This document shows, piece after piece, positions 21,625-49,314 of a DNA stretch of 64,000 bases; position 1 is the stretch's first letter, and the number at the start of each line of letters is the position of its first letter. This DNA is from Cryptosporangium phraense. Its GTDB lineage: Bacteria; Actinomycetota; Actinomycetes; Mycobacteriales; Cryptosporangiaceae. The DNA is taken from positions 1 through 64,000 of the forward strand of contig NZ_VIRS01000011.1 of NCBI RefSeq assembly GCF_006912135.1. Reading direction: 5' to 3'. The notes below the pieces were generated by a model. It saw nothing but the letters and a program-made list of their open reading frames with translations, did no database searches and had not been told where the DNA came from. The translations under genes and the position numbers were made by a program.

Positions 21625-21683
21625 GGCTGGCGGAGGATACGAGATTCGAACTCGTGAGGGGTTGCCCCCAACACGCTTTCCAA
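21625..21683. other. attL
   Basis: 59-bp sequence identical to 49224-49282, from the anticodon loop through the CCA end of tRNA-Ser and a few bases beyond. It lacks the 5' half of the tRNA, so it is the displaced chromosomal 3' fragment. Confidence 0.93.
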
Positions 21684-32392: not shown

Positions 32393-32638
32393 ATGTACGG
32401 CGGCCTGACCGACCACGAGGTACCGACCAGCGTGCAGGAACTCGCGTCGTTCCTCTCCGCCGCGACTGAGGCGGCCGAGGAGCTCTCCGAGGGCTTGGGC
32501 CACCTCGCCACGGAGGGCGGGTTCGGTCTGTTCCCCAAGTTCACGGCCAGCTTGGAGGCCGCCGAGGAGGCGTGCGGTCTGGCCCGTGAAGCGATCGGCG
32601 AGCTGCACAGCGCGCTCCGCGAGGACGTCGACATCTGA
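32393..32638 (+). CDS. Stand-alone protein of the DLDV-domain family
   Basis: 81 aa from ATG 32393, almost entirely the shared C-terminal domain (from ELASFLSAAT) in its most divergent form, ending E-D-V-D-I. The LTPRL signature is replaced by LFPKF. The RBS is weak. Its existence as a separate gene shows the domain folds on its own. Confidence 0.7.
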   Translation: MYGGLTDHEVPTSVQELASFLSAATEAAEELSEGLGHLATEGGFGLFPKFTASLEAAEEACGLAREAIGELHSALREDVDI

Positions 32639-32651
32639 CCCGACCATCCCC

Positions 32652-32693
32652 GGTGACCGGCCCCGCGACCTGCGGGGACCGGGGCCGGTCACC
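32652..32693 (+). terminator. Hairpin upstream of traB
   Basis: 13-bp perfect stem GGTGACCGGCCCC and complement with an inner CCCGC/GCGGG stem possible. Between the small DLDV gene and the TraB gene, so it could limit read-through into traB. Confidence 0.55.
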
Positions 32694-32720
32694 CCGCCCG
32701 GCGGGAGAGGAGACAACACG

Positions 32721-34724
32721 ATGACTAGCAACAAGAACACCGACCCGGCACCGCGCACCGGCCCCTACCTCGACTGGTCGACCGGCTCGGGTGGACCCGG
32801 GTGGACGACCGCCACCGGCACCGTCGCTACCGGGGTGTTCGGTGTCGCCGCAGCGGTCGGCGGGATGGACCCGTGGTGGGCGGTCGCCGCCGGCGGCGTG
32901 CTCGGGGCGGTGTCGGCCGGGGTCGCGTGGATGGACGGCGACCCGGTCCGGGACCGGATGCTTCGGTTGACCAAGTGGGCGTGCGGCGGCGCGTGGATCA
33001 CATGGGCGGCCACCGGGGACGCGTGGCGGCACGGGTGGGCGCCGTGGGTGACCCTCGGCGTCGGCGGCCTCGTGGTCGGCGCGCTCTCGGCGGCGTTCGA
33101 GCGGCGCCGCCCGGCCGGCCCCGCCGACCGGGCACGGGTACAGGCCGCCGCGGTCGCGGGGGCATCGGAGATCGCCGAGGAGTGGCGGACCCGCCTGCGG
33201 GTCGTCTCGAAGATCAGCCTCCCCGCCGGCGCCGTGGCGGTGGCGCTGTGGACCAACGGCTACGGCTACGACGTCCACGCCGACCTCTCCAGCACCCGGC
33301 ACACCTGGCGGACGCTGAAGAAGGATGAGGACGCCCTCGCCGGGAACGCCCGGCTGGCCAACGGCGGCGGGGTCGAGGTCACCGCGGGCGTGCACCGCGG
33401 CGCCACGATCCTGCGCGTCTGTGTGCGGGACGCGATGGCCGAAGAGCGGTTTTACCCGATCAACGACGTCGATCAGGTGCGGTCGATCAACGACCCGATC
33501 AGTTTCGGCCGGCACCGCGACGGCTCCCGCGCCGAAGCCGTCATCCGCTACGCCCGGGTGATCCTGTCCGGCCCGCCGGACGCCGGCAAGTCCAACGAGC
33601 TCCAGGTGCTCAACGCCGAGATCAACCGGTGCGGTGACGCGATCATCCGCATCATCGACCTCTCCGGCGGCTCCCTCGCCTGGCCGTGGGTCCGCCCGTG
33701 GGTCGAGGGCCGCGCGAAAGCCCCCGGCGTGGACTGGGTGGCGCCGGACGCGGAGGAGGCGCAGAAGCTCGCCGAGGACACCCTGTGGGAGTCCAAGCGC
33801 CGCAAGCGCGAACTCCAGTACCTCATCCCCCCGAACGACGACAAAATCCCGGTGTCGGCCGAGGTGCCGGAGATCTTCGTCGTAATCGACGAGGGCGCCG
33901 AGGTCGGCGGCCAGGCCACCTCGGGAGCGGCGAAGAAGACGAAGGCCGCGATCGACGAACTCGCCCGGATCGGCCGGTCGGCCGGGATCAACGTGGTGCG
34001 GTGCGTGCTGCGGCCGACCTCGGACATGACCGGCGGCGCGCAGGTCAAGCGCCTCTCGGGGGTGCGGGTGCTGATGACCAGCCCGGACTCCAAAGACGAG
34101 GGTGCGGCGCTGTTCGGCGGTGGCCGCTACCTCCCCGAGGACGCCCCCTACGCCGGCTGCGGCTGGCTGGCCCGCGAACGCGCCACCGAGGGCCGCCCGT
34201 TCCGCGGGGAGCGGATCACCCCGGCGATCATCGACGCCCTCGCGGTCGCCACCGGCGAGCGGCGGCCGGAGCCGTTCCCGTCGCCGAACTACGCCGGCCG
34301 GTGGGAGCGCATCGGCATCACCCCACCCGGCGCCCCCACCGCGGCGGCACCGGACCCGGCCGCGGGCCGGACGGCGACGGCGACCGCCGAGCGGCCGACC
34401 GGGGAGCGTCCGGAGCGGGACACCGGAGACATCGGCGACCGCCTCGCCGAGCTCCAGCGCCGCCGCGCCGACCGCAAGGCGTTCGACCAGATGGCCGACC
34501 TGTTCAACACGACCGAGGCTCCCGACCCGACGCCCCGGCCGGACTGGCGGACCCGCCTGACCGAACTCCTCCGGGCCGCCGGCGAGGAGGGTCTGAGCGT
34601 CCGCGGCGCGGTCGCCGCGCTCAACGCCGACGGGTTCGAGATCGGTAAAACCGTCGTCCACGAGTGGCTCCAGAAGAACGCCCGCAGCGGCCCGACCGGC
34701 TACACCCTCCCACCCACCACCTAA
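32721..34724 (+). CDS. traB: TraB-type FtsK/SpoIIIE DNA translocase
   Basis: 667 aa conjugative motor that moves double-stranded DNA between cells. From ATG 32721 (GGAGAGGAG upstream): three or four N-terminal transmembrane helices to about residue 135, then the motor domain with Walker A SGPPDAGKSN near 283-292 and Walker B IFVVIDEG near 385-392, and at the C-terminus a winged-helix-like domain (about 610-660, LSVRGAVAALNADGFEIGKT) that in TraB proteins reads the clt locus. Walker A has Pro-Asp-Ala rather than the common Gly-Thr/Ser-Gly. A GGACAC repeat cluster lies immediately downstream. Confidence 0.88.
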   Translation: MTSNKNTDPAPRTGPYLDWSTGSGGPGWTTATGTVATGVFGVAAAVGGMDPWWAVAAGGVLGAVSAGVAWMDGDPVRDRMLRLTKWACGGAWITWAATGDAWRHGWAPWVTLGVGGLVVGALSAAFERRRPAGPADRARVQAAAVAGASEIAEEWRTRLRVVSKISLPAGAVAVALWTNGYGYDVHADLSSTRHTWRTLKKDEDALAGNARLANGGGVEVTAGVHRGATILRVCVRDAMAEERFYPINDVDQVRSINDPISFGRHRDGSRAEAVIRYARVILSGPPDAGKSNELQVLNAEINRCGDAIIRIIDLSGGSLAWPWVRPWVEGRAKAPGVDWVAPDAEEAQKLAEDTLWESKRRKRELQYLIPPNDDKIPVSAEVPEIFVVIDEGAEVGGQATSGAAKKTKAAIDELARIGRSAGINVVRCVLRPTSDMTGGAQVKRLSGVRVLMTSPDSKDEGAALFGGGRYLPEDAPYAGCGWLARERATEGRPFRGERITPAIIDALAVATGERRPEPFPSPNYAGRWERIGITPPGAPTAAAPDPAAGRTATATAERPTGERPERDTGDIGDRLAELQRRRADRKAFDQMADLFNTTEAPDPTPRPDWRTRLTELLRAAGEEGLSVRGAVAALNADGFEIGKTVVHEWLQKNARSGPTGYTLPPTT

Positions 34725-39088: not shown

Positions 39089-39538
39089 ATGCGCATCCTG
39101 GTCACCGGCTCCCGCACGTGGACCGACGCCCGCACGATCGCGACCACCCTCGACCGCGCCACCGACGGGCACCCCGGCCCGCACATCCTCGTGCACGGCG
39201 GCGCCCGCGGCGCGGACACGATCGCCGCCACCCTCGCCGGCCGCCGCGGCTGGCAGGTCGAGGCGCACCCGGCCGACTGGCCCACCTGCGCCCCCGACTG
39301 CCGACCAGGTCACCGGCGCACCCGGTACGACGGCGCGACGTACTGTCCGACGGCCGGGCACCGGCGTAACGCCGCGATGGTGGCCGCCGGCGCGGACCTC
39401 TGCCTCGCGTTCATCCGGGCGAACTCGACCGGCGCGTGTCACTGCGCGAACCTCGCAGAGACCGCCGGGATCCCCGTCCTGCGCCGCATCACCTACGTCG
39501 CCCCCGGCTCCGGTGCGGCGGGCGGTGGTCGAGCATGA
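39089..39538 (+). CDS. SLOG/YspA-like (DUF2493) nucleotide-binding protein
   Basis: 149 aa Rossmann-like protein: MRILVTGSRTWTD, VHGGARGADTIA and AGHRRNAAMV mark the DUF2493/YAcAr branch of the SLOG superfamily, which binds nucleotides or nucleotide-derived ligands. AAGGAGG upstream. Common on actinobacterial plasmids and phages. First gene of the replication operon, ATGA overlap with the polymerase. Confidence 0.8.
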   Translation: MRILVTGSRTWTDARTIATTLDRATDGHPGPHILVHGGARGADTIAATLAGRRGWQVEAHPADWPTCAPDCRPGHRRTRYDGATYCPTAGHRRNAAMVAAGADLCLAFIRANSTGACHCANLAETAGIPVLRRITYVAPGSGAAGGGRA

Positions 39539-41376
39539 CCGCCTACATCCGCCGGCACGGCGGCCACACCTCAATGATCGAGGCCCCCCGCGCCGGCTCC
39601 GACCTCGACCGGGCCGCGGTCTACCGGGATCTCGAGAATCCGGTGCTCGGGTTGGACGTCGAAACCCGCGCGATCGTAGACGGCGGCCCCGGCCACTTCG
39701 GCCCCGACGCCGGCGTCCGCCTGGTCCAACTCGCGACCCCCGACACGGCATGGGTGTTCGACCCCACCGACACCCGCCAGCGCGCCCTGTTGGTCGAGAT
39801 CCTCGCCGACCCGGCCCGCCGGTTCGTCTCCCACACCCCCTACGACGTACTCGCGGTCTGGTCGGCGTTCGGGATCGCCCTCGGACAGCGGGCGGTGGAT
39901 ACACACCTGCTCTCGAAACTCGTCAACCCCGACGAACGCGCCGGTCACCGGCTCAAAGAGCTCACGGCCCGGTACCTCGACGACGGCCTCCGCAAGGCCG
40001 AGGAAGCCCTGCACATCCGGGCCGCCTCCCTCGCCCCGGCGGGCCAGCGGGCCGGGGACGCGGCGATGACGTGGGCGTGGAACCACCTGCGCGCCGACGA
40101 CCCGTCCTACGTGGTCTACGCCGGGATGGACGCCATCTACGTGCGACGGCTGTTGCCGGTGCTGTTGCAGCTCTGCGCCCCGTTCGCCCACCTCGTCACC
40201 GTCGAACAGTGGCTGTCGGCGCAGGCCATCGGCATCACGATCCGCGGCCTGGCCCTCGACAGCGACTACACCCGGGGTCTGTTGGGGCAGGTCGAGGCCG
40301 AGCACGCCGCCGCAGTCGACGCGATCGCCGACGGATTGGGGTTCAAGGCGACCTCACCGAAGTTCGCCGGGTGGCTCGACGACCTCGGGGTGGACGGGCC
40401 GCGCACCGAGAAGACGGGCCGGTTGAAGGTCACGGCCGAGACCCTTGCGGCTCTGGTCATCGCGATCGAGGCCGGGACGCTCCAGCTCGACGACCAGGCG
40501 ACCGCGCTGGTCCGGGCACGGCAGCGGGTCTCGGCGACCTCGAACACGATCGCGAACCTGCGGAGCTTTCTCGCGCACGCCGACGCCGCCGGGCGGGTGC
40601 ACCCGGCGATCAACACCCTGCGCGCGAAGACGGGGCGCATGTCGATCACCCACCCGGCGCTCCAGACGCTGAACAAAGCAGACACGCGCCTTCGGCACTC
40701 ATTCCGAGCCGACCCCGGCTACACCCTCGTGAGCTGCGACTTCGCACAAGTAGAAGTCCGGGTAGCCGCCGCGCTCTCCCGGGACCGGACGCTGCGGGAG
40801 GTCATCGCGTCCGGGGTCAACATCCACGCCGCGACCGCGTCCCTGATGTACGGGCCGGACTTCACACCCGTGCAGAAGACGCTGTCCAAGCGGGCCACGT
40901 TCGGAACCATCTACGGCGGCGGAGTCCGGGCACTCGCGGCGCAGACCGGTGTTCCCGAGCACGTGGCGGCCGAGGTCATCGACCTGTGGCGCCAGACCTA
41001 CCCGGGCGTGATCGCCTACGGCCATCGCATCGCCCGTGACGAGGTCGTGGTCACCGGCTCGGGACGGCGGATCCCGGCCGACCCGAACCGCACCTACGCC
41101 AACAGCAACTACTCGATCCAGTCCACCGCGCGGGACCTGTTGGTGGCCGCGGTCTACGAACTGGTGGTCGTCCACGGCCTCGACCCCGCCACGCTCTGGC
41201 TGTTCGTCCACGACGAAGTCATCCTTCACGTCCCCACCGAGGACGCCGAAGACGTGCGACAGCTGGTCAAGCAGGTCATGACCAGTACCTACCGCGGGGT
41301 GCCGATCGGGGCCGACGCGGAGATCCTCGGCACCCACTGGGGCCACCTCGACCACCCGGCGCAGGTGGCAGCATGA
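39535..41376 (+). CDS. Family A DNA polymerase with 3'-5' exonuclease domain
   Basis: 613 aa from ATG 39535. Exonuclease motifs: LGLDVETRA near residue 41 (Exo I), SHTPYDVLAV (Exo II) and VVYAGMDAIYV (Exo III). Polymerase motifs: A near 401 (SCDFAQVEVRVAA), B KRATFGTIYGGG, C FVHDEVILHV near 558. No 5'-3' exonuclease domain. All catalytic acids are present, so it should be an active proofreading polymerase, phage-like rather than the host PolI. Unusual for an AICE and probably part of its own replisome. Confidence 0.9.
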   Translation: MTAYIRRHGGHTSMIEAPRAGSDLDRAAVYRDLENPVLGLDVETRAIVDGGPGHFGPDAGVRLVQLATPDTAWVFDPTDTRQRALLVEILADPARRFVSHTPYDVLAVWSAFGIALGQRAVDTHLLSKLVNPDERAGHRLKELTARYLDDGLRKAEEALHIRAASLAPAGQRAGDAAMTWAWNHLRADDPSYVVYAGMDAIYVRRLLPVLLQLCAPFAHLVTVEQWLSAQAIGITIRGLALDSDYTRGLLGQVEAEHAAAVDAIADGLGFKATSPKFAGWLDDLGVDGPRTEKTGRLKVTAETLAALVIAIEAGTLQLDDQATALVRARQRVSATSNTIANLRSFLAHADAAGRVHPAINTLRAKTGRMSITHPALQTLNKADTRLRHSFRADPGYTLVSCDFAQVEVRVAAALSRDRTLREVIASGVNIHAATASLMYGPDFTPVQKTLSKRATFGTIYGGGVRALAAQTGVPEHVAAEVIDLWRQTYPGVIAYGHRIARDEVVVTGSGRRIPADPNRTYANSNYSIQSTARDLLVAAVYELVVVHGLDPATLWLFVHDEVILHVPTEDAEDVRQLVKQVMTSTYRGVPIGADAEILGTHWGHLDHPAQVAA

Positions 41377-42284
41377 CCGCCCCCGAGTGCGCCCCGGCCG
41401 AGGCGTCGCGTGGCGCCGCGGCGGAACACGACGCGTCGCGTCACCCTCGAGTGCGACACGACGTGTCGGCTCCCGCGGCATCCAACGCGTACCCGGCGGG
41501 CCCGCGCGACGCGTCGCGCGTGGCCACGGACGACGCGTCGGCTCCAGCTCGACGCGACGCGTCCGGTGGGCCTGCGCTACGGCTCTGCGCGTGGTGCGGC
41601 GGTCCGATCGCCGCAACGGTGCGGCGGGACGCGGTGTGCTGCTCGACCCGGTGCCGGCAGGCCCGCCACCGCTTCGCCCGCACCGTCGGGCAGGCCGAAG
41701 CCGTAGCGGTCGGCCGCCCGCTACGGCTGGCCTACGCCGACCCGCCGTATCCGGGCAACGCGTACCTCTACCGCGGACACTGCGACTACGCCGGCGAGGT
41801 CGACCACGCCGCCCTCATCGCCGGCCTCCAGAAATACGACGGGTGGGCGCTGTCGACTTCAGCGGTCGCGCTCCCGGCCGTGCTGGCGCTCTGCCCGCCC
41901 GGCGTGCGGGTGGCCGCCTGGCACCGCGGCCCGCGGACCACGCCCTCGCGGTGGCCGCTCACCGCGTGGGAACCGGTCATCTACATCGGCGGCCGTCAGA
42001 TCGTCGCGACGCCGGGAGCAGAGCGGCGCACGGACTCTCTCGTGCACGGCGTGTGCGCGATGACCACTCTGCCCGGCCGGGTGATCGGGGCCAAGCCAGC
42101 CGAGTTCTGCCGCTGGCTGTTCACCCTCCTCGGCGCCGCACCTGGCGACACCCTCGACGACCTGTTCCCCGGCTCCGGGGTCGTCGCCCGGGCATGGGCG
42201 GTGTTCACCGGCGCCGAGCCGTCGAGCGAGGCCCGGGACGACATCTCCGAACCAGCCGCCGAGACCTGCGGGAGGACCGCATGA
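41373..42284 (+). CDS. Predicted N6-adenine DNA methyltransferase with zinc ribbon
   Basis: 303 aa, overlapping the polymerase by ATGA. Residues about 1-65 are a low-complexity tract rich in D-A-S encoded by spaced ACGCGT sites. A zinc ribbon follows (LCAWCGGPI, CCSTRCRQARHRF), then a compact methyltransferase domain with catalytic ADPPYPG and a late LDDLFPGSG S-adenosylmethionine motif, the permuted order of MT-A70-like enzymes. No restriction endonuclease is nearby, so an orphan enzyme, perhaps for anti-restriction. Confidence 0.78.
   Translation: MTAPECAPAEASRGAAAEHDASRHPRVRHDVSAPAASNAYPAGPRDASRVATDDASAPARRDASGGPALRLCAWCGGPIAATVRRDAVCCSTRCRQARHRFARTVGQAEAVAVGRPLRLAYADPPYPGNAYLYRGHCDYAGEVDHAALIAGLQKYDGWALSTSAVALPAVLALCPPGVRVAAWHRGPRTTPSRWPLTAWEPVIYIGGRQIVATPGAERRTDSLVHGVCAMTTLPGRVIGAKPAEFCRWLFTLLGAAPGDTLDDLFPGSGVVARAWAVFTGAEPSSEARDDISEPAAETCGRTA
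41485..41562. repeat. Four ACGCGT sites at exact 24-bp spacing
   Basis: ACGCGT at 41485, 41509, 41533 and 41557; a further copy at 41431 is out of phase. Three of the four are flanked as GACGCGTC. They encode the N-terminal D-A-S repeats of the methyltransferase but look iteron-like. Confidence 0.6.
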
Positions 42285-42952
42285 CCAGCCTGATCGGACT
42301 AGCCCGGCCGCGGCTGCTCGACCTGTTCTGCCGCGCCGGCGGGGCCAGCATGGGCTACCACCTGGCCGGATTCGACGTCACCGGCGTCGACAAAGGCGAC
42401 CACTCCGGCGCCTACCCGTTCACCTACCACCAGGCGGACGCGATCGAGTTCGTGATCGAGTATGGGCGGGAGTTCGACGTCATCGCGGGGTCCCCCCCGT
42501 GCCAGCTCTTTTCCCAGTGCCACCGAATCCGCCGCAACGACCACCCGGACCTCATCGGGCCGATGCGGGACGCCGTCCTGCCGCTCGGTAAGCCGTACGT
42601 GATCGAGAACGTCGAGGATGCCCGGGCAGACCTGCGCGACCCGGTCGAGCTGTGCGGAGCGATGTTCCCCGAGCTCAACGTCTACCGGCACCGGCTGTTC
42701 GAGTCCAACGTGCCGCTGTTCGTCCCGGTGCATCCGGTGCATGTCGAGCCGCAGGTGAAGATGGGACGGCCGCCGCGGCCGGGGCATCGGATGCACGTGA
42801 TCGGGAACTTCTCCGGTGTCGCCGCCGGCCGGGTCGCGATGGGCATCGATTGGATGACCCGCGACGACCTGCGCGAAGCTATTCCGCCCGCCTACACCCA
42901 CTTCCTCGGCGGACAGGTCATGGCGGCGCTGACCGGGCAGCGTGCGGCATGA
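42281..42952 (+). CDS. C5-cytosine DNA methyltransferase (compact)
   Basis: 223 aa from ATG 42281. Motif I LLDLFCRAGGASMGYHLAGF, motif IV AGSPPCQLFS with the catalytic Cys, motif VI VIENVED, a motif VIII-like YRHRLFES and a final motif X-like FLGGQV. The target recognition region is very short, as in small phage enzymes. ATGA overlaps on both sides. No cognate endonuclease nearby. Confidence 0.88.
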   Translation: MTSLIGLARPRLLDLFCRAGGASMGYHLAGFDVTGVDKGDHSGAYPFTYHQADAIEFVIEYGREFDVIAGSPPCQLFSQCHRIRRNDHPDLIGPMRDAVLPLGKPYVIENVEDARADLRDPVELCGAMFPELNVYRHRLFESNVPLFVPVHPVHVEPQVKMGRPPRPGHRMHVIGNFSGVAAGRVAMGIDWMTRDDLREAIPPAYTHFLGGQVMAALTGQRAA

Positions 42953-43815
42953 CGCCCCGGGACGGCGAACTCCTGACCGCGGCGTTCGGGTACGCCGGGC
43001 GGGGCTGGCCGGTGTTCTTCCTCGGCCGCACCAAACGCCCGGTGCAAAACTGCCCGGCCTGCCCGACCGGCGCTCCCGGCCACGACCCGGCGGCGTGTGA
43101 GTGCCTGACCTGCCACGGATTCCACGCCGCCACCCTCGACCCCGCCCGAATCCGCGCCATGCACGCCGCCGTGCCAGGCGGGAAACTCGCCATCGCCACC
43201 GGCCTGCGGGCCGGCCTGGCGGTGGCGGACATCGACCCGCGCAACGGCGGAGCCATCGACCACGCCCTGATGCCGCCCACGTATGCGGTGAGCAGCGGCG
43301 GGCGTGGCTGGCACCTGTACTACCAGCATCCCGGTGGCGCCCGGATCCCCTCGCGGGAGCTCGCGGGGCATCCGGGTGTGGACATCAAGGCCGACGGCGG
43401 GTATGTCGTCGCGCCGCCCTCGATCCACCCGGACACCCGCCTGCCGTACCGGGTGATTGGGGGCCGGTCGGTGGTTGAGATGCGCCGCCCCTTGCTCGAC
43501 CTGGCCCGGGCCACGACGGCGGCTCCGGCCCCGTCCGGGCCGGTGTCTCCGGTCGCGGATGGGGGGCGCATCTCCTCACCCCCGGCCCTACTCGCCGCGC
43601 TCCTCGCCAAGGTCGGCGAAGCCCCGGCCGGGCGCCGCCGGACCACGCTCTACGGTGTCGCCCGCGGGGTCGCCCGCCTGGTGAGCGCTGGCCACCTCGA
43701 CCGCGCCGAGGCCGTCGCGATCCTCACCGACGCCGGCCACGCCGCCGGCCAATCCACCCGGGACACCGCCGCGGCGATCGCCGGGGGATTCCGAGCCGAA
43801 GGGGTGCGGACATGA
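42949..43815 (+). CDS. Prim-Pol bifunctional primase/polymerase
   Basis: 288 aa archaeo-eukaryotic primase fold. Acidic metal motif LAVADIDPRNGG, catalytic His in SSGGRGWHLYY, and DIKADGGYVVAPPS, the order of Prim-Pol domains. A cysteine cluster (NCPACPTG, CECLTCHGF) may bind zinc. Replication initiator or primase of one AICE replication class; works with the DUF3987 protein downstream, whose start it overlaps. Confidence 0.88.
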   Translation: MTPRDGELLTAAFGYAGRGWPVFFLGRTKRPVQNCPACPTGAPGHDPAACECLTCHGFHAATLDPARIRAMHAAVPGGKLAIATGLRAGLAVADIDPRNGGAIDHALMPPTYAVSSGGRGWHLYYQHPGGARIPSRELAGHPGVDIKADGGYVVAPPSIHPDTRLPYRVIGGRSVVEMRRPLLDLARATTAAPAPSGPVSPVADGGRISSPPALLAALLAKVGEAPAGRRRTTLYGVARGVARLVSAGHLDRAEAVAILTDAGHAAGQSTRDTAAAIAGGFRAEGVRT

Positions 43816-45461
43816 CCGCCGCCGACGTTCGTCAGCACCTATCCGACCTTGACGAAATTGACACAACCCCCCGCCCCGGACGTCCGGCCGCGGCACCAAC
43901 CCCGGCACCCGGGCCGGATGCGATGCCGACCGTGGGCGGGTGGGAGGCCCCGGCACCCGTTGACGAAATTGACAGAATCCCGCTCCCCGGCTCGACCGGC
44001 CGCTACCCCGCGCCGCTGTGGGCGTTCGTCGACGCCGTCGCCGAATCCCGGCAGGTGCCCCGCGACATGGTGTTCCTGCTGGTTCTGTCAATTCTGTCAA
44101 CGGCATCCGGGGGCCGGTGGCGCGCACGGATCCGCCCGGACTGGACCGAATCCCTCGCCCTCATGACCGTGTCGGCAATGCCCTCGGGGTCGCTGAAGTC
44201 CCCGACCGTCAAGGCCGTCGCCGCCCCGCTATTCGAGCTCGAACGCGAACTGGTCGAGGAGTACGCGCCGCTGGTCAGCGAGAAACAAGCCGCCAAAGAC
44301 TTTCGGCTCGCCGAGGTCGAACGCCTCAAGCGCCGCGCCGGCCGCGGCGACACCGACGAAACCGCCCTCCTCGACGCCGTCCGCGCCGCCGACGAGATCA
44401 CCGTCCCCGCGGTCCCGCGGCTGGTCGCCGACGACGTCACCCCCGAAATGCTCGCCATCCTCATGTGCGAACAAGGCGGCCGGATGGGCGTCCTGTCCTC
44501 CGAAGGCGGCCTGTTCGCCACCCTCGCAGGCCGGTACTCCTCCGGCGTCCCGAACCTCGACCTCGTGCTCAAAGCCTGGTCCGGGGACCCGCATCGGGTC
44601 GACCGCACCACCCGCGCGCCGATCATGCTCAACGAACCGTTCCTGTCCATCGGCGTCACCGTGCAACCCGAGATCATCGAAGGTCTCGCCGACACCCGCC
44701 TGTTCCGCGGCTCCGGGCTGCTCGCCCGGTTCTTCTTCGCCCTCCCGAAACCCCTGCTCGGACACCGCAACCTCGAACCCGACCCCGTCCCCGCCGCCGT
44801 GGCTGATGGCTACGGCCAGCGCATCCGCGCCCTCGCCCGGACCGCCCGGCGGCGCGACGGCATCACCGAACTGCCCCTCACCGTCGCGGCGCAAGAGGCG
44901 CTGCACGCGTTCCGCGTCGACCACGAACCGCGCCTCGACCCCGAGGGCGGCGCGCTCGCCGAGATCACCGACTGGGGCAGCAAACTCCCCGGCCAACTCG
45001 CCCGCGTCGCCGCGCTGTTCGAGCTGTTCACCGACCCCGACGCCGACGCCATCGGCGACACCGCCATGCGCGGCGCCCTCGAACTCGCCCCGTACCTCAC
45101 CGGCCAAGCCCTCGCCGCGTTCGACGCGATCAACGGCCGCCGCGCCCGCGCCGCCCGGCCCCGCGCCGTCCTGACCTGGATCCGCCGCAAGAACCTCGGC
45201 GAGTTCACCGTCCGCCAAGCCCGCCGCGACCTCGGCGGCCAGGACTGGGCCACCAGCGTCGACACCATCCGCGACGTCCTCGACGAACTCGAAGACCACG
45301 GCTGGATCCGCCTCGAAACCCCCACCGACCAGCCTGCCCGCGCCGGCCGACCCCCGAGCGCCCGCTACCGCGTCAACCCCGCCACCCACCGCACCGCCCC
45401 CGTTCTGTCATTTACGTCAACCCCACCCAGCCCCCAACACCCACACACCGCCGCCGGCTGA
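43812..45461 (+). CDS. DUF3987-family replication protein (primase-helicase-like)
   Basis: 549 aa. The conserved N-terminal block (APLWAFVDAVAESRQVPRDM) and a degenerate P-loop (SAMPSGSLKSPTVKA) followed by GRMGVLSSEGGLFATLAGRY are typical of DUF3987 proteins found beside Prim-Pol. The C-terminus has a winged-helix-like segment (VDTIRDVLDELEDHGWIRL). Four copies of a 19-bp sequence, two in each orientation, lie inside this gene. Last core replication gene before xis/int. Confidence 0.82.
   Translation: MTAADVRQHLSDLDEIDTTPRPGRPAAAPTPAPGPDAMPTVGGWEAPAPVDEIDRIPLPGSTGRYPAPLWAFVDAVAESRQVPRDMVFLLVLSILSTASGGRWRARIRPDWTESLALMTVSAMPSGSLKSPTVKAVAAPLFELERELVEEYAPLVSEKQAAKDFRLAEVERLKRRAGRGDTDETALLDAVRAADEITVPAVPRLVADDVTPEMLAILMCEQGGRMGVLSSEGGLFATLAGRYSSGVPNLDLVLKAWSGDPHRVDRTTRAPIMLNEPFLSIGVTVQPEIIEGLADTRLFRGSGLLARFFFALPKPLLGHRNLEPDPVPAAVADGYGQRIRALARTARRRDGITELPLTVAAQEALHAFRVDHEPRLDPEGGALAEITDWGSKLPGQLARVAALFELFTDPDADAIGDTAMRGALELAPYLTGQALAAFDAINGRRARAARPRAVLTWIRRKNLGEFTVRQARRDLGGQDWATSVDTIRDVLDELEDHGWIRLETPTDQPARAGRPPSARYRVNPATHRTAPVLSFTSTPPSPQHPHTAAG
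43848..43866 (+). repeat. 19-bp dispersed repeat, copy A
   Basis: CTTGACGAAATTGACACAA, direct orientation, two mismatches to copy B. Encodes L-D-E-I-D. Confidence 0.75.
43959..43977 (+). repeat. 19-bp dispersed repeat, copy B
   Basis: GTTGACGAAATTGACAGAA, direct orientation, 111 bp after copy A. Encodes V-D-E-I-D. Confidence 0.75.
44083..44101 (-). repeat. 19-bp dispersed repeat, copy C (inverted)
   Basis: On the minus strand GTTGACAGAATTGACAGAA, two mismatches to copy B. On the plus strand it encodes L-S-I-L-S, so the match to A and B is at DNA level. Confidence 0.75.
45403..45421 (-). repeat. 19-bp dispersed repeat, copy D (inverted)
   Basis: On the minus strand GTTGACGTAAATGACAGAA, two mismatches to copy B, near the 3' end of the DUF3987 gene (encodes L-S-F-T-S). 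Confidence 0.75.
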
Positions 45462-45489: not shown

Positions 45490-45906
45490 GTGCCCGAACC
45501 GACCCCGAAACCGACCTGCTCGTACCGCCGCAGCGCATCCGGCGGTACGCGACACACCAACCCCCAAACGACAAGCCCGCAGACGCGCGCTCAGCGGCCC
45601 GCCAGAGCCGCGCCATGCCCCGCCGCCGAGGCGTCCCCGCTGATCGCTCATCCCCAAGGAACGGAGCCGACGATGGATCTCGAAGCGCTTCCCGGCCCCG
45701 CAGTCGACGCGCCCGAGGCCGGTGACGACCTCGTGCTGACCGTCGAGGAGGCCGCCGCCCGGCTACGCGTCGGCCGGACGACGATGTACGGCCTGATCGC
45801 CTCCGGTGCCGTCGAGACGGTCACGATCGGCCGACTCCGCCGGGTGCCGACCGCAAGCCTGCACACCTACGTCGAGGGACTGCGAACGCGAGGTGAGGCG
45901 GCATGA
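45490..45906 (+). CDS. xis: Excisionase (Xis), MerR/HTH type, with optional N-terminal extension
   Basis: The excisionase proper is the last 77 residues from ATG 45673: a winged HTH of the excisionase family (LTVEEAAARLRVGRTTMYGL, VTIGRLRRVPTASL). It directs Int toward excision. The frame continues upstream to GTG 45490, which has a much stronger RBS (AAGGAGG 7 nt away), 28 bp after the DUF3987 stop. The extension is low-complexity, so either start may be used. Its stop overlaps the int start. Confidence 0.82.
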   Translation: MPEPTPKPTCSYRRSASGGTRHTNPQTTSPQTRAQRPARAAPCPAAEASPLIAHPQGTEPTMDLEALPGPAVDAPEAGDDLVLTVEEAAARLRVGRTTMYGLIASGAVETVTIGRLRRVPTASLHTYVEGLRTRGEAA

Positions 45907-47150
45907 CCGAACCGAAGCGCACCCGCCGGGGGAACGGCGAATCCAGCATCTACCTCGGGAAAGACGGCAAGTGGCACGGCCGGGTGACGGTCGGTGTCAA
46001 GGACGACGGCAAGGAGGACCGCCGCCACGTCGAGCGGAAGACCCGAACCGAGGTCGTGAACGCCGTCCGCGAGCTGGAGAAGCAGCGCGACGCCGGGCGT
46101 GTCCCGAAGCCGGGGGAGCGGTGGACGCTCGGGAAGTGGTTGACGCACTGGCTGAAGGAGGTCGCCCTCCCCTCGGTGAGCGAGAACACCTACGCCGGTT
46201 ACGAGGTCGACGTGCGGGTGCATCTCATTCCCGGCCTCGGCGCTCACCGGCTCACTGGCCCGAACCGCCTCCAACCTGACCACCTCACGCGCTTTTACAC
46301 GAAAATGCAGAAGCAGGGCAGCAAGCCCGCGACCGCTCATCACGCGCACCGCACCGTCCGCACGGCGCTCGGTGAGGCCGTGCGCCGCGGCATCCTGACC
46401 GAGAACCCGGCCGAACTCGCCAAACCTCCCCGGATCGAGGAGGAGGAGATCGAACCGTACACGGTCGAAGAGGCGCAACGGATCCTCCTCGCGGCGAAGG
46501 GACCGAACCGGGCGCGGTGGGTGCTCGCCCTCGCGCTCGGCCTGCGCCAGGGCGAGGCGCTCGGGCTGAAGTGGGAAGACGTCGACCTCGACGGCGGCTA
46601 CCTGCGGATCCGGAAGAACCGGCTCCGCCCCAAGTACGAACACGGATGCGGCGGCACGTGCGGGCGCAAGGCCGGCTACTGCCCGGCCCGCAAGCAAATC
46701 CGCCGGGAGACCAAGGCCACCAAGTCACGCGCCGGACGTCGCACCGTCGGCCTACCCGACGAGTTGGTCAAGCTCCTCCGCAAGCACCGCGAGGAGCAGG
46801 AGGCGCTACGCGCGACCGCCGCACAGCTCTGGACGGCGAAGGGTTACGTGTTCACCTCGGCGACCGGTGAGCCGATCGTGCCCAACACCGACTACCACCA
46901 CTGGAAGCAGTTGCTCGCCGACGCCGGCGTCCGGGACGCCCGGCTGCACGACGCCCGGCACACTGCGGCGACCGTGCTCCTCATCCTCGGCGTGGACGGC
47001 CGGATCGTGGACGCCATCCTCGGGTGGGAGCCGGGCGGCGCCGCCCGGATGCGAGCCCGGTACATGCACGTCACCGACCCGATGCTGAGCAAGGTGGCTA
47101 AGAAGGTCGGCGCCGCGCTCTGGGGCTCCTCAGCGGAGGACACGACCTAG
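45903..47150 (+). CDS. int: Tyrosine site-specific recombinase (integrase)
   Basis: 415 aa. N-terminal arm-binding domain (SSIYLGKDGKWHGRVTVGVK), core-binding domain (about 75-175, WLTHWLKEVALPSVSENTY), catalytic domain with Arg in LGLRQGEALGLKW near 214, HxxR in LHDARHTAAT near 349-352, and nucleophile Tyr in RARYMHV near 386. A short Cys-rich insert (HGCGGTCGRKAGYC) lies after the first catalytic block. ATGA overlap with xis. Acts on the tRNA-Ser att sites. Confidence 0.95.
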   Translation: MTEPKRTRRGNGESSIYLGKDGKWHGRVTVGVKDDGKEDRRHVERKTRTEVVNAVRELEKQRDAGRVPKPGERWTLGKWLTHWLKEVALPSVSENTYAGYEVDVRVHLIPGLGAHRLTGPNRLQPDHLTRFYTKMQKQGSKPATAHHAHRTVRTALGEAVRRGILTENPAELAKPPRIEEEEIEPYTVEEAQRILLAAKGPNRARWVLALALGLRQGEALGLKWEDVDLDGGYLRIRKNRLRPKYEHGCGGTCGRKAGYCPARKQIRRETKATKSRAGRRTVGLPDELVKLLRKHREEQEALRATAAQLWTAKGYVFTSATGEPIVPNTDYHHWKQLLADAGVRDARLHDARHTAATVLLILGVDGRIVDAILGWEPGGAARMRARYMHVTDPMLSKVAKKVGAALWGSSAEDTT

Positions 47151-47271
47151 CTCGGCGAGGGCATCAAATCTGTAGTTGGGAAGGGGACCACACGGGCCAG
47201 GCCCAGTCAGTAATCGTCATACGCTGCCAGTACCGTCGGCACACCCACTGACAGACAGCCCAGGAGTCCCG

Positions 47272-47904
47272 ATGACACGCAGGACACGCATCCTGCACTT
47301 CACCCATGAGGACAACTTGGTGCAGATTTTCGGGCGGGGAGGGCTGGTATGCGACAAGCAACGCCGCTCGTCAGGCATCGAATCGCGGAACGTCGCTTAC
47401 AGCGATCTTAAGCTGGAGCGATCCCAAACGATTGTTGAGGTTCCGCCGGGTGGAACCCTTGACGACTACGTTCCCTTCTATTTTGGTCCAAAGTCACCAA
47501 TGATGCTCACCTACATGAACGGGAATGTCACTGGATCTCTTGAGGACCTTAACGAGATTGTGTATTTCGTGTCCTCTGCCCAGCACGTCGAAGCCAGTGG
47601 CCTAAAGTTTGCTTTTACCGACGGTCATCCAGTTAAGCAGCCGCGATTCTTTTACAATGACCTAGCGGACCTTGGGGAAGTCGACCACGCCCTCATGTGG
47701 CAGAAATGGTGGCACGACACGGACGAGTACCCCGACCGCAAACGTCGCAGACAAGCTGAGTTTCTGGTGTGGCGGGAGATGCCCCTCACAGAAATTGACC
47801 ACTTGGTCACGAAGAGTCATCCGAAGCGGCTGGAAGTTGAATCAATGTTGTCGAATTGGGATCTAGATATTCCGTGCCGTGCGTGGCCTAGCTGGTACTA
47901 TTAA
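47272..47904 (+). CDS. darT: DarT-type DNA ADP-ribosyltransferase toxin (DUF4433)
   Basis: 210 aa from ATG 47272, CAGGAG 5 nt upstream; an in-frame upstream start is less likely. Family marks: N-terminal ILHFTHEDNLVQIFGRGGL, the NAD-binding region YVPFYFGPKSPMM, and the catalytic Glu in AEFLVWREMPLTEI near residue 163. DarT modifies thymidine or guanosine in single-stranded DNA and acts in phage defence. GC content and codon use are clearly lower than in the rest of the element, so a separate acquisition. Coupled to darG 26 bp downstream. Confidence 0.9.
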   Translation: MTRRTRILHFTHEDNLVQIFGRGGLVCDKQRRSSGIESRNVAYSDLKLERSQTIVEVPPGGTLDDYVPFYFGPKSPMMLTYMNGNVTGSLEDLNEIVYFVSSAQHVEASGLKFAFTDGHPVKQPRFFYNDLADLGEVDHALMWQKWWHDTDEYPDRKRRRQAEFLVWREMPLTEIDHLVTKSHPKRLEVESMLSNWDLDIPCRAWPSWYY

Positions 47905-47930
47905 AGCGGATCAGATGGGGAGGCGAGACG

Positions 47931-48974
47931 ATGGCGATCAGGGTTGAACACGGCAATCTTCTGCTGGCGCAAGTGGACGCGATTATCAACACTGTGAATA
48001 CGGTTGGTGTAGCCGGCAAGGGTATAGCCTTGCAGTTTCGTCAAGCTTTCCCGGAGAATTTCCGTGCATACGAGAAAGCTGCGAAGCAGGGGCAAATAGT
48101 TCCAGGCAAGATGTTCGTCACCTCGACAGGTCTGATTCAGTACCCTCGTTACATAATAAACTTCCCCACCAAGCGCCACTGGCGGGCGGGGAGTCGAATC
48201 GCCGATATTGAATCGGGCCTGGTTGATCTAGTCGCCATGATACGCGAATATCAGATCTCTTCGATAGCAGTTCCTCCTCTTGGCTGCGGTAACGGCGGTC
48301 TTGACTGGTCGGATGTCCAGCCGCTTATTGTCGGCCATCTAGACGCGCTTTCGGATGTTGATGTATTGCTCTATCCCCCTAGCACGGCGCCGTTGGCCGA
48401 GGAGATGCCCATACGGACCGAACGGCCGGCGATGACTCTAGGCAGGGCGGCGCTTCTAATGCTTCTTAAACAGTACCGAGAGGCTGATAGTTTCCGTCTG
48501 TCGGCTCTAGAAGTCCAGAAGTTGGCATACTTCCTCCAGGCTTCCGGAGAGTCGCTTCGCTTGAATTATGTCAAGGCGAAGTACGGCCCCTATGCCGAGA
48601 ATCTCAACCATGTCCTACGAACCATGGATGGGCATTACACCGTCGGTTACGGGGACCGAAGTCGAGAGCCGCAGATAAGGCTCGTCGACGGCGCGGCGTC
48701 GGAAGCGAAGAACTTCCTCGAAGGCCATGGCGCGACTAAGGCCAATTTGGATAGAGTATCCAGGCTCGTGCGAGGCTGGGAAACACCGTTCAGTCTCGAA
48801 CTTCTCGCTACGACTCATTGGGCACTCACGCACGGAATGGGGAAGGTCTCTCGCGCCGAGGTCTACAAATTTGTTGCATCCTGGACGCCTCGCAAGGCTG
48901 ACCTTTTCAAGGAGAAACAAATCGATCTAGCGATCGATCACCTCGTTGCGCATCGGTTCGCAGATCCCGTCTAG
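47931..48974 (+). CDS. darG: DarG-type macrodomain antitoxin
   Basis: 347 aa. N-terminal macrodomain (about 1-155) with IINTVNTVGVAGKGIALQFR and VPPLGCGNGGLDW, which removes ADP-ribose from DNA. The C-terminal half (about 160-347, LEVQKLAYFLQASGESLRL, VKAKYGPYAENLNHVL) is the domain that binds DarT. GGGGAGG upstream of ATG 47931. Same low GC as darT. Right-most element gene. Confidence 0.92.
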   Translation: MAIRVEHGNLLLAQVDAIINTVNTVGVAGKGIALQFRQAFPENFRAYEKAAKQGQIVPGKMFVTSTGLIQYPRYIINFPTKRHWRAGSRIADIESGLVDLVAMIREYQISSIAVPPLGCGNGGLDWSDVQPLIVGHLDALSDVDVLLYPPSTAPLAEEMPIRTERPAMTLGRAALLMLLKQYREADSFRLSALEVQKLAYFLQASGESLRLNYVKAKYGPYAENLNHVLRTMDGHYTVGYGDRSREPQIRLVDGAASEAKNFLEGHGATKANLDRVSRLVRGWETPFSLELLATTHWALTHGMGKVSRAEVYKFVASWTPRKADLFKEKQIDLAIDHLVAHRFADPV

Positions 48975-49223: not shown

Positions 49224-49282
49224 GGCTGGCGGAGGATACGAGATTCGAACTCGTGAGGGGTTGCCCCCAACACGCTTTCCAA
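49224..49282. other. attR
   Basis: 59-bp copy identical to attL; forms the 3' half of the functional tRNA-Ser. Confidence 0.93.
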
Positions 49283-49314
49283 GCGTGCGCCCTAGGCCTC
49301 TAGGCGAATCCTCC
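49227..49314 (-). tRNA. tRNA-Ser (anticodon GGA)
   Basis: The acceptor stem GGAGGAT pairs with ATCCTCC, the anticodon loop reads TTGGAAA, a long variable arm follows (TTGGGGGCAACCCCTC), the T loop is GTTCGAATC, and CCA is encoded. The 3' half comes from the AICE. Confidence 0.95.

Follow-up and report, generated by a model that had tools for sequence, protein, structure and literature searches.

The closest described systems to the one considered here are the Rep origins of the SaPI/PICI elements, in which an initiator helicase uses its C-terminal domain to read short iterons, and the origin, which has an AT-rich centre, usually lies just 3′ of the initiator gene with two iteron sets whose sequences are element-specific (PMC6092414, PMC7581432). 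In SCCmec, the self-loading helicase Cch2 carries its dsDNA-binding domain at the C-terminus and three direct 5-nt iterons are found downstream; the operon includes a polymerase, CCPol (PMC7581432). The pRN1 protein ORF904 combines a Prim-Pol with a helicase and a winged helix, and its origin, which can be moved from its place immediately downstream of the gene, is a large stem-loop explicitly without iterons (PMC4234260). Amongst the actinobacterial integrating elements, the AICE RepPP / SLP1 SCO4617–4618 module has the gene order of our locus, with a Prim-Pol gene followed by a replication gene, and neither an origin nor iterons were reported for this Prim-Pol/RepPP type (PMC3218068). DUF3987 proteins have been predicted to be helicases of mobile elements, and in related replication proteins the winged helix was predicted to be the part that recognises the origin (PMC5862659). 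We found no description of the origin of the Prim-Pol/RepPP-type AICEs in the literature searched. Iterons within the coding sequence of the initiator itself, as seen in our locus, are known from phage lambda where ori lies in gene O, though O is not a helicase and is unrelated to DUF3987.

The window, by which we mean the whole 64-kb stretch of Cryptosporangium phraense DNA analysed, includes a 27.7-kb AICE-type element bounded by 59-bp copies of the 3′ part of a tRNA-Ser gene (attL, 21625–21683, + strand, and attR, 49224–49282, + strand, the latter within the complete tRNA-Ser gene at 49227–49314 on the minus strand). The element encodes, all on the + strand, an FtsK/SpoIIIE-like transfer protein (32586–34724; phrog_31069, E 4e-69; no Pfam FtsK match was above threshold), and in one operon a family A DNA polymerase (39436–41376; PF00476, E 4e-49), a Prim-Pol (42652–43815; PF09250, E 2.5e-30) and the DUF3987 (YfjI/RepPP-type) protein whose gene bears the repeats (43812–45461; PF13148, E 1e-89), followed by an excisionase-type HTH protein (45490–45906; PF12728, TIGR01764) and a tyrosine integrase (45903–47150; PF00589). 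A GntR regulator is also found amongst its genes. The tyrosine integrase with att sites at a tRNA gene, the FtsK/SpoIIIE-type protein and the replication module of Prim-Pol plus DUF3987 identify this as an AICE with a Prim-Pol/RepPP-type replication module of the kind described earlier (PMC3218068), and bear out the AICE setting proposed when only the sequence had been read. We note that the attR end carries as cargo a DarT ADP-ribosyltransferase and macro-domain (DarG-like) pair of much lower GC (47176–48974), and that a second in-gene repeat set, a cluster of palindromes of the CGACGCGTCG type at 41399–41575, is found in the ORF adjoining the family A polymerase gene (41373–42284). This has four exact GACGCGTC copies in 134 bp plus degenerate ones, though the window total of six GACGCGTC is not above the 8.7 expected by chance and only the clustering is unusual.

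A search of the whole window at ≤3 mismatches found exactly four matches to the 19-bp consensus GTTGACGAAATTGACAGAA, two on each strand and all within the DUF3987 ORF, where 100 dinucleotide shuffles gave none. Each copy splits into two 9-bp half-units, TTGACnnnA and TTGACAGAA, of the GACAGAANN type. Pair A (GACGAAATT GACACAACC; 43848–43866, +) differs from the consensus at two positions and encodes LDEIDTT, and pair B (GACGAAATT GACAGAATC; 43959–43977, +) matches it exactly. Array C (GACAGAATT GACAGAACC AGCAGGAAC; 44074–44101, −) encodes LLVLSILS and consists of a 19-bp copy with two mismatches (44083–44101, −) plus a third degenerate unit, and pair D (GACGTAAAT GACAGAACG; 45403–45421, −), again with two mismatches, is at the 3′ end of the gene. 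These results agree with the sequence-only reading in the number, orientation and position of the copies, in the two mismatches separating A, C and D from B, and in the peptides, with DEID encoded twice by the direct copies and LSILS and LSFTS by the inverted ones. Its expectation that the motif would be confined to the element was borne out by a scan of the entire 8.46-Mb genome, in which TTGACNNAATTGACA occurs three times, always within this gene. The further claim that selection on the protein does not account for the match is upheld by codon usage: the gene is 72% GC, yet 16 of the 28 motif codons end in A or T compared with 57/522 in the remainder (Fisher p 1.7e-8), and the TCA and ATT codons (four and three, respectively) are all within motifs with none outside. 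This concentration of odd A/T-ending codons in the motifs indicates that selection acts on the DNA.

The nearest relatives of the window DUF3987 protein, from Saccharopolyspora spinosa, Halopolyspora and Micromonospora veneta (52–54% identical), all have, at matching codons in the 5′ end of the gene, + arrays together with a − array; in two of them the 3′ end has a − array as well. The position of pair B in the alignment (VDEIDRIPLP) coincides with the + arrays of all three; array C has counterparts at the same codons in loci L034, L035 and L036, each with its own unit, and pair D has counterparts in L034 and L035 and none in L036. The units of these relatives are mainly GCCAAAATT or GCCAGAATT, compared with GACAGAATT or GACGAAATT in the window, and the A-, B-, C- and D-type sites change together (GCCAAAATT to GACAGAATT) despite encoding unrelated peptides (relatives/window: AKNAK/DEIDR, ILAILA/LSILS and GNFGN/LSFTS). 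The conservation anticipated for related elements was therefore found in the positions of the sites and not in their letters, which differ and change in concert at all sites, the behaviour expected of cognate iterons.

We expanded the comparison to 80 named loci obtained by an alignment-based scan (a single-protein contig scan gave no matches). The exact 19-mer is absent from the homologues, with partial look-alikes in L019 and L032 only, but many carry their own version of the repeat in which the layout is kept and the letters have diverged. A typical relative has about three NNCA(G/C)AANN units with a 9-bp period facing a second, convergent array, and the pair is usually found immediately 3′ of the DUF3987 gene. 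In the 80 loci, 123 CA(G/C)AA pairs with a 9-bp period were found in 1.0 Mb and 119 of these adjoin a DUF3987 gene, compared with 10 for the reversed pattern and 0–13 for other periods, apart from 18 and 21. A test free of any motif, which counted self-similar 16-mers with an inverted partner, also peaked at period 9 (658 pairs, 520 of them near the gene), with 49 pairs in all and two near the gene for periods 6–8. These period- and orientation-specific tests replaced raw best-repeat scores, which did not discriminate between gene and control windows because GC-rich repeats dominate them.

The arrangement of these arrays is regular, with convergent arms in 31/31 two-armed loci; at the 3′ end of the DUF3987 gene the arrays of three units are + on the left and − on the right. 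Reading inwards, the fully built region has an outer set of three units spaced at 9 bp, then a conserved block, an inner set of three at 10–11 bp and a GC-rich centre of approximately 50–105 bp, followed by the mirror image; the mean AT content of the centre between the arms is 0.22. In most relatives the candidate origin covers some 60–340 bp immediately beyond the 3′ end of the gene, and each side has as many as six units; most of the Micromonosporaceae that have arrays show three plus three units, set ~17 bp apart. The bases flanking the core of the units are far more alike between the left and right arms of one locus (0.90) than between loci (0.44; permutation maximum 0.65). A terminator hairpin would be feasible where the arms are 17–26 bp apart, as in the Micromonosporaceae, but was rejected as a general explanation given that elsewhere the innermost arms are usually 24–180 bp apart and the window sites are within a gene. 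No array was found for approximately 22 of the 74 aligned loci, either close to the gene or, in those searched further, up to ~18 kb from it. Several Streptosporangiales lack an array beside the gene, and in six such elements a convergent region is found to the 5′ side of the gene at a distance of 8.5–17 kb; in 602 kb the reversed control returned no such region. The IMG/VR loci provided one clear two-armed case, L160. A full array region is also carried by an 18.45-kb circular Streptomyces record filed as a plasmid (NZ_CP107792.1), which by gene content (FtsK, Prim-Pol, YfjI, HTH and integrase) is an excised AICE, and such elements do therefore exist as circles.

The identity of the iterons follows that of the DUF3987 protein. 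In a training set of 46 loci, residue 472 (R in the window; codon 45225–45227, + strand) was the sole column of 487 to separate G-first from C-first iterons without overlap, and in all 46 of these loci R is found with units starting G(A/C/G), A, S, T or N with CG, and V with CA. The first base switches four times in the helicase-core tree and residue 472 switches each time, though it should be noted that the training tree has only four independent switches, giving a sign test p of 0.125. Column 472 was chosen post hoc, and this is answered in part by the held-out loci, in which R against G agreed in 20/20 (18/18 without rows identical to training; eight held-out loci are ≤60% identical to any training row), and by the six distant origins, where S or T at 472 predicts that there should be no G-first unit and none was found. 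As these origins obey residue 472 from 8.5–17 kb away, adjacency of gene and origin is not the cause of the link between residue and repeat. Streptacidiphilus sp. ASG 303 has two AICEs (L039/L048) with DUF3987 proteins that are 96% identical but have R and N, respectively, at 472; in both arms the iterons are of the GACAGAA type with R and the CGCAGAA type with N, and the two elements retain much of the origin sequence lying in between. In the predicted structure, R472 is in helix α2 and not in the usual recognition helix α3, which counts against the reading proposed below, as do the loci for which no array was found.

This structure, an AlphaFold2 model of the window protein (pLDDT 87.8), resembles MCM AAA+ motors over residues 62–435 (archaeal MCM 6mii: Z 17.4, rmsd 3.8, 270 residues). 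The best match to the C-terminal 90 residues, which taken alone form a winged helix, is the C-terminal domain of MCM4 (Z 9.1 over 70 residues), and we propose this winged-helix domain of the window protein (residues 443–521; 45138–45374, + strand) as the iteron reader of what is predicted to be an MCM-like AAA+ initiator helicase. On the sequence evidence, the repeats are probably iterons to which DUF3987 binds at the replication origin of the element. We infer that after excision the C-terminal winged helix would recognise the 9-bp units, and the convergent arrays would seat two MCM-like AAA+ rings head to head, with the AAA+ motor then opening the DNA; priming and extension would fall to the Prim-Pol, possibly aided by the family A polymerase of the element, and in this way the element would replicate. 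In the clade to which the window belongs, arrays A, B and C (plus D) are encoded in the proposed initiator's own gene.

Of the two alternatives in the sequence-only reading, which had suggested iterons of an AICE origin or sites for a regulator, the former is favoured as iterons of the cognate initiator, because relatives have the same convergent layout and specificity tracks the winged helix of DUF3987. We consider it improbable that the repeats are not an origin but operator sites, at which a regulator, or DUF3987 as an autorepressor, controls the replication or xis–int operon. Many relatives do have the array between DUF3987 and the xis/int genes, and iteron initiators often autoregulate too, but the sites of the window clade are in a coding region and those of six elements are 8.5–17 kb away, while the multiple inverted sites retain their layout at every location and specificity tracks DUF3987. 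The last of these also bears on the very unlikely suggestion that the repeats are arm-type sites for the integrase or excisionase, or part of attP, as the covariation was found with DUF3987 (DUF3987 columns being those compared). Arm-type sites would fit short repeats in both orientations which in many relatives are close to xis/int, but the att sites of the window element at 21.6 and 49.2 kb (tRNA-Ser) are >3.8 kb from the nearest copy.

The 9-bp period corresponds to three codons and tandem units will therefore give peptide repeats, and DEID and LSILS might be read as such; nonetheless, there is hardly any chance that the motif simply mirrors repeated peptides or is a chance repeat, given that copies in the two orientations code for unrelated peptides, that rare codons cluster within the motifs and that the arrays are outside genes in most relatives. 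A less improbable, though still doubtful, alternative accepts the sites as iterons but regards those in the window as a decayed or partial origin, or as control or incompatibility iterons, with the working origin elsewhere in the element. The window sites have only two or three units each, fewer than in the relatives, with D 1.3 kb from C, and origins are mobile between relatives, all of which would suit this alternative. Against this, the unit pair has no other copy in the whole genome and three related elements keep the sites at matching codons, and we retain the view that these are probably the iterons of the origin itself.

The best reading of these sequences is that the proposed DUF3987 origin works like the SaPI/PICI and SCCmec origins and adds a new form to the iteron origins on which self-loading initiator helicases act. 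As in SaPI/PICI, short iterons would be read by the C-terminal domain of an initiator helicase, and two iteron sets beside the initiator gene are found in the relatives, though in the window the sets are in-gene. The initiator is of another family, however, and no AT-rich melting region was found between the iteron sets, the centre being GC-rich instead (mean AT 0.22, and 0.25 between B and C in the window), and we therefore do not class it as a PICI origin. DUF3987 iterons may also be in-gene or kilobases away, and there is the residue-472 code. SCCmec CCPol is a family A polymerase, but the DUF3987 elements differ from SCCmec in having a separate Prim-Pol, two convergent arrays and another helicase family. 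We lean slightly towards the wider proposal that DUF3987 initiators across the Actinomycetota share an undescribed class of origin, in which the iterons are specified by a largely one-residue code (R, V, or A/S/T/N at 472) that has switched repeatedly and allows near-identical elements to coexist in a cell without cross-reading, and that in some lineages the whole origin has been brought inside the initiator coding sequence. Prim-Pol/RepPP-type AICEs are a main gene-transfer vehicle of antibiotic-producing actinobacteria, for which precise candidate origin coordinates are now given; a domain of unknown function is offered a role as an iteron-reading, MCM-like initiator, the code predicts origin sequence from protein sequence, and the in-gene arrays would provide a clean case of one stretch of DNA serving both protein and origin.

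Several further observations were made amongst the relatives. Conserved blocks, TGACC(A/T)GC(A/G)CA(A/G)A and CGCAG(A/G/T)TCA, are found between the outer and inner arrays (L037–L113) with partial enrichment (X, 9 near compared with 2 far; Y, 26 compared with 76), and as the former is on the left in Streptomyces and on the right in some Pseudonocardiaceae it may give the direction of the origin. Only the left half of the origin is seen in Tsukamurella (L142, 7280–7400), where a TGACCTGCAC block separates three iterons at a 10-bp period from three at a ~11-bp period. In three Micromonospora loci without CAGAA arrays (L087, L089 and L101), the DUF3987 gene is followed directly on its 3′ side by a hairpin, AAATGGCCGCAATGGCAGAAACCCC...GGGGTTTCTGCCATT, which may be either a terminator or an iteron set that has diverged. 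A large array in Nonomuraea montanisoli (L092, 10184–12508) has dozens of matches to the GC-rich unit TCCCCGCGCACGCGGG at 61-bp spacing and is likely to be a CRISPR-like or other repeat array. Finally, three DUF3987 loci in Dactylosporangium roseum (L093, L095 and L097; NZ_CP073721.1, ~7.36–7.39 Mb) are spaced ~8.1 kb apart and may represent a tandem array of a small element.
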